This document shows positions 5,303-22,529 of a stretch of DNA of 64,000 bases, in pieces. How positions within the stretch are numbered: the first letter of the stretch is position 1; each line of letters starts with the position of its first letter. The position numbers and the translations under genes were made by a program. Source of the DNA: an uncultured Selenomonadales bacterium. Its GTDB lineage: Bacteria > Bacillota > Negativicutes > Acidaminococcales > Acidaminococcaceae. Below the pieces are notes generated by a model that had not been told where the DNA came from, ran no database searches, and saw only the letters and a program-made list of their open reading frames with translations. The stretch spans positions 1 through 64,000 of the forward strand of contig OMWZ01000004.1 in the NCBI GenBank assembly GCA_900314855.1, read 5' to 3'.

Positions 5303-5331
5303 TTGCCAGCGCGGGCGCCGTCGGGTACAAT
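5303..5331 (+). promoter_or_regulatory. Sigma-A-type promoter of the exported lyase
   Basis: TTGCCA and TACAAT with a 17-base spacer, directly after the upstream terminator's T-run. About 80 bases of leader follow to the ATG. Confidence 0.7.
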
Positions 5332-5413
5332 AAAGACAGCAAAGGAGCAGAAGCGAGGCGGGACGCGTGGTTCCCGTCCGGGGGCTCCCTGTTTTCGCGA
5401 GGAGGTAGTGCCT

Positions 5414-6925
5414 ATGTTGCTGCGCAAATCGTTCCTGGCCCTGTTGGCCTGCACGCTCTTGACCGGCGTTGTCGGCGGGGCGGGGGAAGCGGCCCCGACC
5501 GCCGCCGCGCCGCGGGATAATTTCTACTGGCTGGGCCAGATCAACAAGGCCACGGACATCATCAACACGGACGAAGGCCTGCTGACGAAGGAAGAAGGCC
5601 GTGCCTTCGCCCAGGCGATTGCCAAGGTCCTGGCCGACGGCAGCCGCCCCGGCGCCGACCGTCCGTCCAACGTCATCCTGTTTGAACCCTACCTGATCCA
5701 GGCGGCGGGCCCGCAAATCACGAAAATCCATGCCGGTCGTTCGTCGCAGGATATGCTGACCACCGTCGGCATCCTGGAACAGCGGGAACATCTCCTCGCC
5801 CTGGCAGACGGGCTGAACCGCGTCCAGGCCGATTTGATCGCCCTGGCCGAAGCGAACCGCGAAACCATCATTCCCAATTACACCAACGGGGTCGCCGCCC
5901 AGCCGAACAGCCTGGCCCACTACCTGCTGGCCTACGCCGACGCCTACAGCCGCGATATGCAGCGCCTGCGCCAGTACTACAAACGGCTCAACCGCTCGCC
6001 CATGGGCGCCACGGTCCTGAACGGCACCGGCTGGCCCCTCAACCGCGATCGCATGGCTCATTACCTGGGCTTCGACGGCCTGGCCTACAACACATACGAC
6101 GCCGGCCAGGTGTTCCCCCAGGAAGCCCCCATCGAATCGGGCGGGATTACGAACTGCATCGCCATCCACACGACGGGATTTATTGAGGAAATCATGCAGC
6201 AATATGCCCAGCCGCGGCCTTGGATCCTGCTGAAAGAGGGCGGCGGCAACACGTACGTGTCCTCCGCCATGCCCCAGAAACGCAACCCGGGAATCCTCAA
6301 CCGCTGCCGGACCGACGCCTCGACCCTGTTGGGCCTGTCCGTCGAAGCCGCGTTCCGGTCCCACAACATTCCCGCCGGGATGGCCGACGGCCGCCTCAAC
6401 GGGCGGAACGATGTCTTTCCCCGGGCCACGAAGGTCCTGGCGGGCCTGGACCAAATCCTAAACAACCTCGTTATCGACCCCGACCGGGCCCTGGAAGAAC
6501 TCAATCTCGACTGGACCTGTTCCCAGGAAATCGCCGACCGGCTCATGAAAAACCATGGCATTCCCTTCCGGACGGGACACCATTTCGCCAGTGAAATCGT
6601 TTCCTATGCCCGGGCACACAACATTACCCCGAAAGAGTTCACCTACGACCAGGCCCGTCAGGTCTACGCCCGCGTCGTCGCCAACGATCCGGTCCTGCCC
6701 CAGGCCTTCCCCATGACGGCGGAAGAATGGGACAGCGCCAAAGATCCCCGGGCCATCGTCCGCAACCGTGCCGTCAAAGGCGGTCCCCAGCCGGCCGAAC
6801 TGGATAAGATGCTGCGCATGGCGAAAGAGACCGTGGCGGACCATGAAGCATGGACCCGGCAGACGCGGAAGAAACTGGAAGACGCGGAAGCACGGTTAAA
6901 TGCGGATTTTCAGGCCAAACTATAA
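5414..6925 (+). CDS. Exported fumarase/argininosuccinate-lyase superfamily enzyme
   Basis: The 503-residue product belongs to the lyase superfamily that includes argininosuccinate lyase and fumarase. The hallmark catalytic loop is present as [11 protein letters not shown] (about residue 285). Other ASL-like pieces are GRSSQD in the first third and [13 protein letters not shown] in the middle. Unlike normal ASL it starts with a signal peptide: two basic residues, a hydrophobic run [13 protein letters not shown], then an Ala-rich cleavage zone near residues 24-32. ATG 5414 follows GAGGAGG. It should therefore work outside the cytoplasm. No arginine-synthesis gene is adjacent; the SNF symporter lies upstream. 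The substrate is unknown, and a C-N or C-O beta-elimination is expected. Confidence 0.8.
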
Positions 6926-7025
6926 TTTCACCGGGTCGCTATGATGGTCGTTGTCGCAAAATGGAATGTTGGATACGTGTCGTCTTTACACGTGTTTTTG
7001 CGATACGTATGAAAATGGGAAAAAC

Positions 7026-7068
7026 AAAAAATCTCCTGTGACCGCTGTCTGTCACAGGAGATTTCGTA
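7026..7068 (-). terminator. Terminator of the SSS symporter gene
   Basis: A 12-bp stem (ATCTCCTGTGAC with GTCACAGGAGAT) is followed on the minus strand by TTTTTTGTTTTT. It also faces the end of the lyase gene and may serve both strands. Confidence 0.85.
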
Positions 7069-7082
7069 ATTTCACAGGCAAT

Positions 7083-8498
7083 TTACTGCTGCGTGCTGAC
7101 CAGCCCTTCTGTCGAAATCGCTTTCTTGCTCACGAAGCTGATGCCACAGAACACGCCGCCGCAGACGAGCCATTCGGCGTAGATCACATGGGGCAGGACG
7201 CGGACTGCCGGGAGGAACATCCAGGCGACAAGCACGACGATGGAGGCGAGAATCGTCCAGAACGCGGCCTGGCGGGAGCAGTACTGGGGAGCATACATGG
7301 TCATGAGTACGATGACGGAGAAGGCCGCCATGAGAGACAGGCCGGCCATGAGGGTGGAAATGATGCCGCTGATGGTGAGGGCGAAGCCCAGGGTCAACAG
7401 GCCGAGCAGGAGGACGGAAATCCGCGTGACCCGCATGTAGCGGCTGTCGTCCATGTCCGGCTCGACAAACCGTTTGTGGATGTCGTGGGAATAGAGCGTC
7501 GCCGCCGACAGGAGCAGGTTGCAGGCCGTGCTGACATCGGCCGCCCACAGGGAGGCCAGGGTAATGCCCGCGATCCACGGATTGAGGCTCATGATGAGGC
7601 GGGGCAGGGCCGTCGTCGGCGCGATGCCCGGGTACAGCTCCGACGCGATGACGCCGAGCAGGGCGGCGACGAAGCCGACGGGCAGCATGACGAGGCCGCC
7701 GTAGAGGAACCCGCGCTGCGCCGTCCGCACATCCCTGGCGCCCAGGGAAATCTGGATGATGGCCTGCAGGGACAGATTGACCGTGACGAGGACGACAATC
7801 CACGTCACGATGGTCATGCCGCCGACACCGCCGACCAGATCCAGGGCGTGGACCGTCGGCGCCTGGACGGCCACGACATCGATCCCGCCGGCCAGGCCCA
7901 GGATCAGGAAAGCCGCCACGGTAATGCCGATATACTGGATCGTCACGTTCAGGATATTCGACTGGCTGGCGGACCACATGCCGCCGATGAGGGTGATGCC
8001 GATGAAGACGACGGCGCTGGTCAGCATGCCCGTCAAGGGCGTGAACAGGTCGGGCAGGAGGGACGCCAGGATGGCGCCGCCGGCCACGTACTGCAGGCTC
8101 ATGATGACGAGCTGCACCAGAATCTGGCAGGTAATGCCCGCCACTAGGGCCCGTTTGTCATAGTACCGTTCCAGCAGTTCCGGCACGGTCGTGATGTTGA
8201 GCTGGCGGTACTTTTTCGCGACCGTGAGGCCCATGACGATGGCGCCGATGCCCCAGGCCGCCGTGTACCAGCCTGCCGACAGGCCCACTTTGTAGGCCTG
8301 TTCCGCCACGCCGATCGTGGACGCGCCGCCCACGGCGAGCCCGACGATGGACACGAGAATCAACGGCGTCGTCAACTTGCGCCCTGCCAGGACATACGCC
8401 TCGGCCGACGCTGCCGCCCGGTGCTTCACATACGCGCTGATGCCGAACAACACGGCAACGTAGGCGACAATGATGAAAATCTGTACTGCTGAACCCAT
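7083..8498 (-). CDS. Sodium:solute symporter (SSS/SSF) family, Phe T-box controlled
   Basis: The 471-residue protein has about 13 hydrophobic segments and the SSF fold signatures, including GGASTIGVAEQAYKVG (near residue 57), the helix-2 region of sodium/solute symporters. It probably imports an organic solute with Na+. Its leader is a T-box RNA whose specifier reads UUC (Phe), so it is expected to be switched on when tRNA-Phe is uncharged. This makes phenylalanine or a precursor such as phenylpyruvate or an aromatic amino acid the best guess for the substrate. That assignment is inferred from the leader, not from the protein. Confidence 0.88.
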   Translation of the reverse strand: MGSAVQIFIIVAYVAVLFGISAYVKHRAAASAEAYVLAGRKLTTPLILVSIVGLAVGGASTIGVAEQAYKVGLSAGWYTAAWGIGAIVMGLTVAKKYRQLNITTVPELLERYYDKRALVAGITCQILVQLVIMSLQYVAGGAILASLLPDLFTPLTGMLTSAVVFIGITLIGGMWSASQSNILNVTIQYIGITVAAFLILGLAGGIDVVAVQAPTVHALDLVGGVGGMTIVTWIVVLVTVNLSLQAIIQISLGARDVRTAQRGFLYGGLVMLPVGFVAALLGVIASELYPGIAPTTALPRLIMSLNPWIAGITLASLWAADVSTACNLLLSAATLYSHDIHKRFVEPDMDDSRYMRVTRISVLLLGLLTLGFALTISGIISTLMAGLSLMAAFSVIVLMTMYAPQYCSRQAAFWTILASIVVLVAWMFLPAVRVLPHVIYAEWLVCGGVFCGISFVSKKAISTEGLVSTQQ

Positions 8499-8869
8499 TT
8501 TTGATACTCCTCTCTCTTTGTCGGCGCCAACAAAAAAAGCCGTTCCCTGAGGGACGACTTTGTCGCGGTACCACCCTGCTTACCGATGGAAATAAAAAAG
8601 GGTGGCCCCCAGGGACGGAAACAGGTTCCGCGGTACCACCCTTCTTATCTCGAATCGATCAACTCATGGCCGTGTAACGGCAGCCACACCGGTACGGCCT
8701 ACTGTCAATTCAGCCGTACAGCTCCGGGATGAACTTCATGACCTTTTCCCTGGTCCCCTTGCACCATCCGGGGCCTCTCTGCGAAGTTCCAAGGCACTAC
8801 TTTATCCCTTCGTCACTGTTTGCGTTTTGCGTTATGGTTTCATTGTACCGGAAAGAGGGACGATGTCAA
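8499..8869 (-). promoter_or_regulatory. T-box leader, Phe (UUC) specifier, doubled antiterminator
   Basis: Read on the minus strand, the leader has a Stem I with AGUA, an AGAGAG bulge segment and the specifier segment GAAGTTCATCCCGGAG, which fits the consensus GAA-n-NNN-A and gives specifier TTC (bases 8731-8733). The antiterminator core AGGGTGGTACCGCGG lies at 8629-8643 and is followed by a terminator with a T-run (8596-8645). A second core, AGGGTGGTACCGCG at 8564-8577, follows with its own terminator (8531-8560) but no second Stem I. The UGGU bulge fits a tRNA with an A discriminator base, as in tRNA-Phe. One specifier thus appears to feed two serial antitermination decisions before the SSS gene. 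Confidence 0.85.
8842..8869 (-). promoter_or_regulatory. Promoter of the T-box leader
   Basis: On the minus strand, TTGACA and TACAAT are separated by 16 bases. Transcription should start about 340 bases before the SSS start codon. Confidence 0.8.
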
Positions 8870-8923: not shown

Positions 8924-9712
8924 TTATTGGATGTACTGCGCCTCCAGCTGGGCCATGGTGCCGTCCGTCTCCATTTCCGCGAGGAAAAAGTTGACGTAGT
9001 TCAGGAAGTCCTGGTCGCCTTTGGCCAAAAGGGCGCCGAAGCGGCTTCTGGTGAATGGCTTGTCCACGAGGGGCGCGGCCAGTTTTTCGTTCAGCCGGAC
9101 GTATTTGCGGGCTTCCATGGTTTCCGTGATCATGATGTCGGCCTTGCCTTCGCCGACGAGAGCGGGGATTTCGGCGTTCTGCTCATGGATGAGCAGCGTC
9201 GCCTGGGGCAGGTTGGCGCGGGCGAATTTCTCGTTTGTGCCGCCGGGGTTGACCATGACGCGGACGCCCGGCTGGTTGAGGTCGGCCAGGGTCTTGAATT
9301 TGGCGGCGTCTCCCTTGCGGCAGAGGATGGTCTTGCCGAAGAGCAGGTACCCGTCGGACATGGCCAGCGTGCGCTCGCGGTCAAAGGTGCGGGTGATGCC
9401 GCACAGGGCCAGGTCGAATTTGCCGTCTTTCGTGTCCTGCGAGAGGGTCTTCCAGGTCGTAGGGACGTATTCCACTTTCACGTGGAGGGAAGCGGCCAGT
9501 TTTTCCGCCAGTTCGGCATCGAAGCCTTCGTATTTGCCCGTTTCTTTGTCCCGGTAGGACATGGGGCGGTAGTCGCCGGTGGTGCCGACGCGGATGGCGC
9601 CGCGGGCGGCGATGTCTTCCAGGTGGGCTGCCCAGGCGGTGGTCATGGCGCCCAGGCACAGGCCGGCAACCAAGGCTGCCGTAGCGCCGTATTTCCAGAA
9701 TTTCAGGGACAT
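8924..9712 (-). CDS. Periplasmic cyclohexadienyl dehydratase-like / family 3 solute-binding protein
   Basis: The 262-residue protein has a signal peptide (cleavage near AWA-AHLED) and a type II periplasmic binding fold. It closely follows PheC-type cyclohexadienyl dehydratases as I know them: TTGDYRPMSYR, FDAELAEKLA, PTTWKTL, and NPGGTNEKFARANL (mid-protein). The family's TDAIEAR segment, thought to carry the catalytic Glu, reads TETMEAR here. PheC enzymes turn prephenate or arogenate into phenylpyruvate or phenylalanine outside the cytoplasm, but they evolved from amino-acid-binding proteins, so a binding-only role remains possible. No ABC permease or ATPase is adjacent. A Phe-specific T-box gene follows immediately, which supports the aromatic link. 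Confidence 0.78.
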   Translation of the reverse strand: MSLKFWKYGATAALVAGLCLGAMTTAWAAHLEDIAARGAIRVGTTGDYRPMSYRDKETGKYEGFDAELAEKLAASLHVKVEYVPTTWKTLSQDTKDGKFDLALCGITRTFDRERTLAMSDGYLLFGKTILCRKGDAAKFKTLADLNQPGVRVMVNPGGTNEKFARANLPQATLLIHEQNAEIPALVGEGKADIMITETMEARKYVRLNEKLAAPLVDKPFTRSRFGALLAKGDQDFLNYVNFFLAEMETDGTMAQLEAQYIQ

Positions 9713-22378: not shown

Positions 22379-22454
22379 GGGCGCTTAGCTCAGCTGGGAG
22401 AGCGTCTGCCTTACAAGCAGAATGTCAGCGGTTCGATCCCGTTAGCGCCCACCA
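22379..22454 (+). tRNA. tRNA-Val (TAC anticodon)
   Basis: The 76-nt cloverleaf has acceptor GGGCGCT pairing with AGCGCCC, and an encoded ACCA end. The anticodon loop CTTACAA reads TAC (codon GTA). It starts 3 bases after tRNA-Lys, and its last base is shared with the next tRNA. Confidence 0.95.
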
Positions 22455-22529
22455 TTTCGGTAGCTCAGTTGGTAGAGCAAAGGACTGAAAATCCTTGTGT
22501 CAACAGTTCGATTCTGTTCTGAGGCACCA
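22454..22529 (+). tRNA. tRNA-Phe (GAA anticodon) with irregular acceptor 5' strand
   Basis: The anticodon loop CTGAAAA reads GAA (Phe); D arm, anticodon arm, T arm and the encoded CCA are normal. The 5' acceptor strand is ATTTCGG against CTGAGGC, giving an A1-C72 mismatch and three G-T pairs. A strand beginning GCC would have been expected. To reach 76 nt, the gene must share its first A with the last A of tRNA-Val. It could be a decayed copy or one damaged where two tRNA genes were joined. Confidence 0.8.

Follow-up and report, generated by a model that had tools for sequence, protein, structure and literature searches.

The window analysed here, a 64,000-nucleotide stretch of contig OMWZ01000004.1 from an uncultured Selenomonadales bacterium, carries on its minus strand a T-box leader located upstream of a gene encoding a sodium/solute symporter. 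The full leader extends from 8822 to 8608 (minus strand) and is matched end to end by the Rfam model RF00230, over model positions 1-219 and above the gathering score (116 bits vs 93, E 5.6e-25). The features of the locus are as follows.

8842..8869, minus strand: candidate sigma-70 type promoter, TTGACA, 16-nt spacer, TACAAT (identified solely by its consensus match, 11 of 12 bases)
8723..8822, minus strand: Stem I with the AGAGA loop motif at 8780-8776 (RF00230 alignment)
8731..8733, minus strand: specifier TTC (Phe), from its position in the RF00230 alignment
8654..8662, minus strand: Stem III 5′ strand and start of its loop (UUGAUCGAU), for which a double use is proposed (sequence, complementarity tests)
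8645..8649, minus strand: Stem III 3′ strand, GAUAA, 3 nt before core 1 (sequence)
8629..8641, minus strand: core 1, GGGTGGTACCGCG, serving as 5′ strand in both antiterminator 1 and terminator 1 (RF00230 alignment, sequence)
8594..8643, minus strand: terminator 1, in which AAGGGUGG (8643-8636) pairs with CCACCCUU (8605-8598), T-run 8599-8594 (fold of 8644-8594, -24.2 kcal/mol)
8577..8587, minus strand: P2, the strand leading into core 2 (AUCGGUAA and a 3-nt linker, GCA), complementary to 8662-8654 (sequence, fold; conserved across leaders)
8564..8576, minus strand: core 2, GGGTGGTACCGCG, of antiterminator 2 (sequence, partial RF00230 match)
8532..8560, minus strand: terminator 2, classical T-box form, AAGUCGUCCC...GGGAACGGCUU, T-run 8538-8532 (fold of 8577-8532, -14.2 kcal/mol)
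7083..8498, minus strand: regulated gene, sodium/solute symporter (SSF), 471 aa (PF00474, E 6e-25)
22454..22529, plus strand: tRNA-Phe, anticodon GAA, the expected ligand (ARAGORN)

The candidate promoter TTGACA-16-TACAAT (8869-8842) lies just upstream of the T-box leader. The specifier TTC (8733-8731) stands within the GAA-x-TTC-A context expected from the Rfam alignment and fits a tRNA encoded in the same window, tRNA-Phe GAA at 22454-22529. The symporter (8498-7083) scores under the curated cut-off of TIGR00813. Directly upstream of the leader and on the same strand is a gene for a family-3 solute-binding protein (8924-9712, minus strand). An argininosuccinate-lyase-like ORF (5303-6925, plus strand), which scores under the curated argH cut-off and has a signal-peptide-like start, adjoins an SNF-type transporter.

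The original prediction described a full Stem I with the specifier TTC followed by two cores about 65 nt apart, each with a terminator and a T-run. This anatomy is confirmed by RF00230 and by the sequence, and can now be assigned to the minus strand: core 1 (8641-8629) and core 2 (8576-8564) are spaced by 65 nt, and the T-runs are located at 8599-8594 and 8538-8532. The covariance-model search returned, besides the full match 8822-8608, a separate partial match for core 2 at 8581-8550 (model positions 183-216, 27 bits, E 3.4e-4 in a whole-genome search). This search yielded 14 T-box rows, 13 of which are full-length, core 2 being the partial one. Both units possess the T-box bulge UGGN and an antiterminator with a competing terminator ending in a T-run, and their antiterminators fold to -10.2 and -7.8 kcal/mol, respectively. 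The terminators are built differently. In terminator 1, the core pairs with CCACCCUU and the T-box bulge itself is buried inside the terminator stem, while terminator 2 has the usual form built on CGUCCC. The claim that there is no second Stem I also holds, since unit 1 fills the gap and core 2 matches only model positions 183-216. Within the 65 nt between the cores, taken up by antiterminator 1 and terminator 1 plus roughly 17 further nt, neither the sequence nor RF00230 revealed a second Stem I. A diverged copy in this interval was ruled out, there being no room and no match. A complete tandem T-box is recognized by a second Stem I carrying a specifier of its own, which this leader lacks; it is a partially tandem T-box, in which one Stem I is followed by more than one antiterminator/terminator unit.

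The two-core arrangement is neither due to chance nor the accident of one genome. Defined as two cores with a 48-78 nt gap, the pattern matches 83 of 380 Negativicutes genomes, and the control, the same pattern read backwards, matches none. The arrangement, which had been implied to be uncommon, is thus common in this class; moreover, partially tandem T-boxes already appear in a review (PMC7583486, in excerpt). Outside the class, 6 of 289 genomes from an evenly drawn phylum sample match, of which one (L253) does not resemble a true pair on reading. In the order of a Paenibacillus genome (G380), 3 of 296 genomes match, one of them (G708) not being T-box-like by eye. Among 30 loci of symporter homologues, fetched from 61 genomes, 20 have two cores upstream, 10 have none and not a single one has exactly one core; the 10 loci without cores contain no T-box above the gathering score. 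Within the same genus, the pattern is found in 3 of 14 genomes (own genome included). These three alone possess a closely related symporter (88-100% identity), whereas the other 11 lack one (60% or less). A loss of core 2 among near relatives would have weakened the initial proposal, but it was ruled out: in this genus, every genome with such a symporter matches the two-core pattern.

The specifier was examined in 63 symporter leaders and reads TTC in 59 (55 by script and 4 by eye), TAC in two and ATC in one, one being unreadable. At the locus L041, ATC is the specifier of the two-core leader before the symporter homologue, and another two-core leader there is not TTC either; the two-core architecture is therefore not tied to Phe. 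Two-core leaders are also found before ORFs that look like binding proteins (L224, L226 and L227), and a CRISPR array (6663-7953, minus strand) is present in L045, near a two-core leader of Clostridium ragsdalei.

In the window, the classical Stem III is weak (+2.3 kcal/mol for its 5-bp form), and a hairpin search across leaders recognized no Stem III hairpin in this leader. The strand preceding core 2 offers another partner to the Stem III 5′ strand, as AUCGGU (8587-8582) can pair with AUCGAU (8659-8654). The resulting helix, designated Stem III′, would comprise the pairs A8659-U8582, U8658-G8583, C8657-G8584, G8656-C8585, A8655-U8586 and U8654-A8587, the register of Stem III versus Stem III′ being set by eye and claimed for the window alone. 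Ahead of each core in the window stand AA at -5/-4 and a linker of 3 nt. The possibility that P2 belongs to a complete Stem III of unit 2 was considered and rejected, as about 17-22 nt are left after the T-run in most leaders (non-systematic look).

This complementarity is conserved across leaders and specific to each of them; it links the final ~20 nt ahead of core 2 with the Stem III 5′ strand and loop that precede core 1. In a main set of 56 leaders sharing less than 70% identity with each other, the native duplex between Stem III and P2 has a mean energy of -13.15 kcal/mol, compared to -7.85 kcal/mol for permuted partners (z -14.7, with 0 of 20,000 permutations as low) and -7.69 kcal/mol for shuffled P2. 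The native P2 ranks among the best 3 of 56 partners for 28 of the 56 leaders and 20th or worse for six. Varying the identity cut between 0.5 and 0.9 (32 to 78 leaders) leaves the signal in place, and it appears in symporter leaders (z -9.0) as well as in leaders of other genes (z -7.3) when tested apart. It is also confined in position. Sliding windows upstream give z -14.1 at -24 to -8 from core 1 (next best -3.9, from an overlapping window), and those downstream give z -14.0 only when they end 0-4 nt before core 2 (next best -3.8, also from an overlapping window). The AA flank at -5/-4, which is the one described for Stem III (PMC7583486, in excerpt), is kept before core 1 in 45 and 46 of the 56 leaders and before core 2 in 46 and 49.

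Covariation was assessed on 35 aligned symporter leaders, picked as one spacing type. In this set, Stem III′ cells are paired in 84.4% of cases versus 68.0% after shuffling and 27-48% in slides. Double-changed cells amount to 38 versus 13.8 in shuffles, with compensatory changes in 6 of 7 pairs. In the same alignment, the classical Stem III displays no covariation above shuffles (75.7 vs 73.9). Folding with both antiterminators fixed gives a minimum-energy structure with 5 or more Stem III′ pairs in 44 of 53 leaders, versus 50% with a foreign P2. Among the 45 leaders with a recognizable Stem III hairpin, P2 enters the loop in 40 (null 52%) and overlaps two thirds of the 5′ strand in 32 (null 44%); its duplex beats the stability of the hairpin in 45 of 45, the cost of closing the large loop being ignored in this comparison. 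Both helices start at an identical 5′ base in only 10 of 54 leaders in an unguided search (null 7%), and in 18 of 108 in another.

Leaders from Negativicutes, Clostridium, Paenibacillus, other Bacillota and records titled Chloroflexi show the pairing; the genes behind them encode symporters or binding proteins, or resemble aroF and asnS. Four leaders from outside the class were added later; L258 and L260 fit by computation and L257 by eye, while L259 does not and seems, by eye, to carry a separate hairpin. Three cores are present in L067, L183 and L184. In L183 and L184, where the three cores follow one Stem I, Stem III is a better match for the strand ahead of core 3 than for that ahead of core 2; the downstream ORF looks like a DAHP synthase. 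In L067, both extra strands fit Stem III equally. L067, L069 and L262, from Paenibacillus and its order, have two to three units made of near-identical repeats before a transporter that is SNF-type by look.

According to the review PMC7583486 (in excerpt), tRNA binding by an antiterminator is not appreciable unless Stem III is present. Unit 2 is devoid of its own Stem III hairpin, with little room for one in most leaders, and the conserved pairing of P2 with the Stem III 5′ strand offers an answer to this requirement. The little room, the kept AA flank, the fit of P2 and its entry through the loop are most simply read as one Stem III 5′ strand being used first by unit 1 and then by unit 2. We thus consider it rather likely that the leader has one tRNA-Phe sensor (Stem I with TTC, and Stem II) and two units which test the same tRNA in turn, Stem III being strand-exchanged between them. 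At the stage of unit 1, the Stem III 5′ strand would pair with its own 3′ strand beside antiterminator 1, which the end of an uncharged tRNA would keep open. Once the polymerase has moved beyond terminator 1, P2 would emerge, enter via the Stem III loop and displace the old 3′ strand. Stem III′ would then form beside antiterminator 2, with unit 1 looped out. The tRNA would stay on Stem I while its end leaves core 1 to be re-tested at core 2, where a charged tRNA would let terminator 2 end transcription. The original prediction had proposed two serial checks under one specifier; conservation supports this idea well, but the absent Stem III of unit 2 was not addressed by it. What is observed here is the anatomy, its conservation and the covarying Stem III′ pairing, while the hand-over, the use of the same tRNA molecule, a tighter off-state, a steeper response and a delay-like filter are inferred. 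Points that weigh against the exchange are the weak Stem III of the window and its lack of covariation above shuffles, the few leaders in which both helices share their 5′ starting base, the overlap figure for the 5′ strand (32 of 45, null 44%), duplex energies that leave out the cost of closing a large loop, and the leaders that do not fit.

The same complementarity could in part be a relic of the duplication of a hairpin half. In its strict form, this alternative assumes serial checks without strand exchange: the copied piece began inside Stem III, and antiterminator 2 functions with a loosely folded Stem III or none at all. The linkers ahead of both cores are indeed similar (AA at -5/-4 in most), as a duplication would leave them, and P2 and the native 3′ strand score alike against the Stem III 5′ strand alone (z -7.3 and -7.6). 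However, P2 pairs with the loop of Stem III as well (z -10.2 with loop and 3′ strand taken together; 40 of 45 leaders show entry into the loop), something a copy of the 3′ strand would not do, and compensatory changes keep the pairing between distant genomes. These two observations argue against a mere relic. An antiterminator alone is, in addition, a poor tRNA binder (PMC7583486, in excerpt), and we regard this explanation as unlikely. Two tRNA molecules could also be invoked, one bound to Stem I and serving unit 1, the other a free uncharged tRNA whose end would be sensed by unit 2 with no specifier check. The two cores of the window have the same bulge and TGGTACC dominates in both units across the main set (49 of 56 in unit 1 and 50 of 56 in unit 2), as such a scheme would expect. 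Yet unit 2, being without a specifier, would answer any uncharged tRNA with a fitting discriminator base, and Stem III′ would be left without a role, which makes this scheme very improbable.

The differences between units could finally point to unit 1 as mainly a constitutive attenuator or decoy lowering expression, unit 2 being the real switch. Across the 56 dissimilar leaders, the 5′ partner of the terminator lies inside the core in 41 of 56 first units versus 8 of 55 second units, some of the latter being errors of T-run calling, and in the window terminator 1 is the more stable (-24.2 vs -14.2 kcal/mol). By the same cut-off, 4 of the 12 other T-boxes of the own genome would be classed as core-paired; by eye, none of the 12 pairs its bulge with the 3′ strand of the terminator. 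Unit 1 contains CGCCCC or CACCCC in 19 of 56 leaders (e.g. L019 and L022), while unit 2 contains CGCCCC in 6 of 56 and mostly CGUCCC, C thus replacing the U of CGUCCC more often in unit 1. As the main sensor of the aminoacyl group is a G-U wobble (PMC7583486, in excerpt), such a change would turn this wobble into a G-C pair and may make checkpoint 1 less strict. Against a decoy role, all 56 leaders retain TGGYACC as the bulge of unit 1, and in 55 of them the antiterminator 3′ strand of this unit matches. Besides, the first terminator can be classical outside Negativicutes (e.g. L067, L086 and L126), so that a core-paired terminator 1 is not the general feature, which lies in Stem III instead. 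A decoy function of unit 1 is therefore quite improbable.

Compared to known systems, this leader shares with the RF00230 T-box a Stem I with specifier, a Stem II region, Stem III, the T-box bulge and the competition of antiterminator and terminator, but it has two units per Stem I and its terminator 1 uses the core as 5′ strand. Tandem glycine riboswitches have the opposite layout, with two sensors and one platform. Modular duplication within one leader is common to them and to this leader (PMC12452182, in excerpt). Complete tandem T-boxes are documented in the same excerpt, e.g. in trp, thrS and ilv leaders. They also make two serial decisions before one gene, but each of their units is a full sensor and platform, whereas this leader has no second Stem I and apparently shares its Stem III. 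It corresponds to the partially tandem T-boxes, as we understand the term, which are mentioned in one sentence of the consulted portion of PMC7583486, where their modes of action are called unknown. The two-core architecture is hence already known, and the complementarity between P2 and Stem III is what goes beyond it. Partial duplications of T-boxes are also reportedly described by Vitreschak et al. (2008). The part of the literature that was searched contains no account of a Stem III strand being shared or exchanged, although an earlier notice may exist.

We give an even chance to the broader proposition that partially tandem T-boxes generally pass one Stem III from unit to unit through successive strand exchange, with each additional unit bringing just a new Stem III 3′ strand, an antiterminator and a terminator. 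Growth of the transcript would then move the tRNA end between checkpoints, and the charging sensor would proofread over time. The shared-strand model makes the mode of action of partially tandem T-boxes, an open question according to the excerpt of PMC7583486, testable by a few point changes. If true, such leaders would be a natural RNA device re-checking one bound ligand through toehold-like strand displacement during transcription, of use for understanding T-boxes and for RNA design, and would serve as a warning that single-leader models split or miss these elements in annotation.
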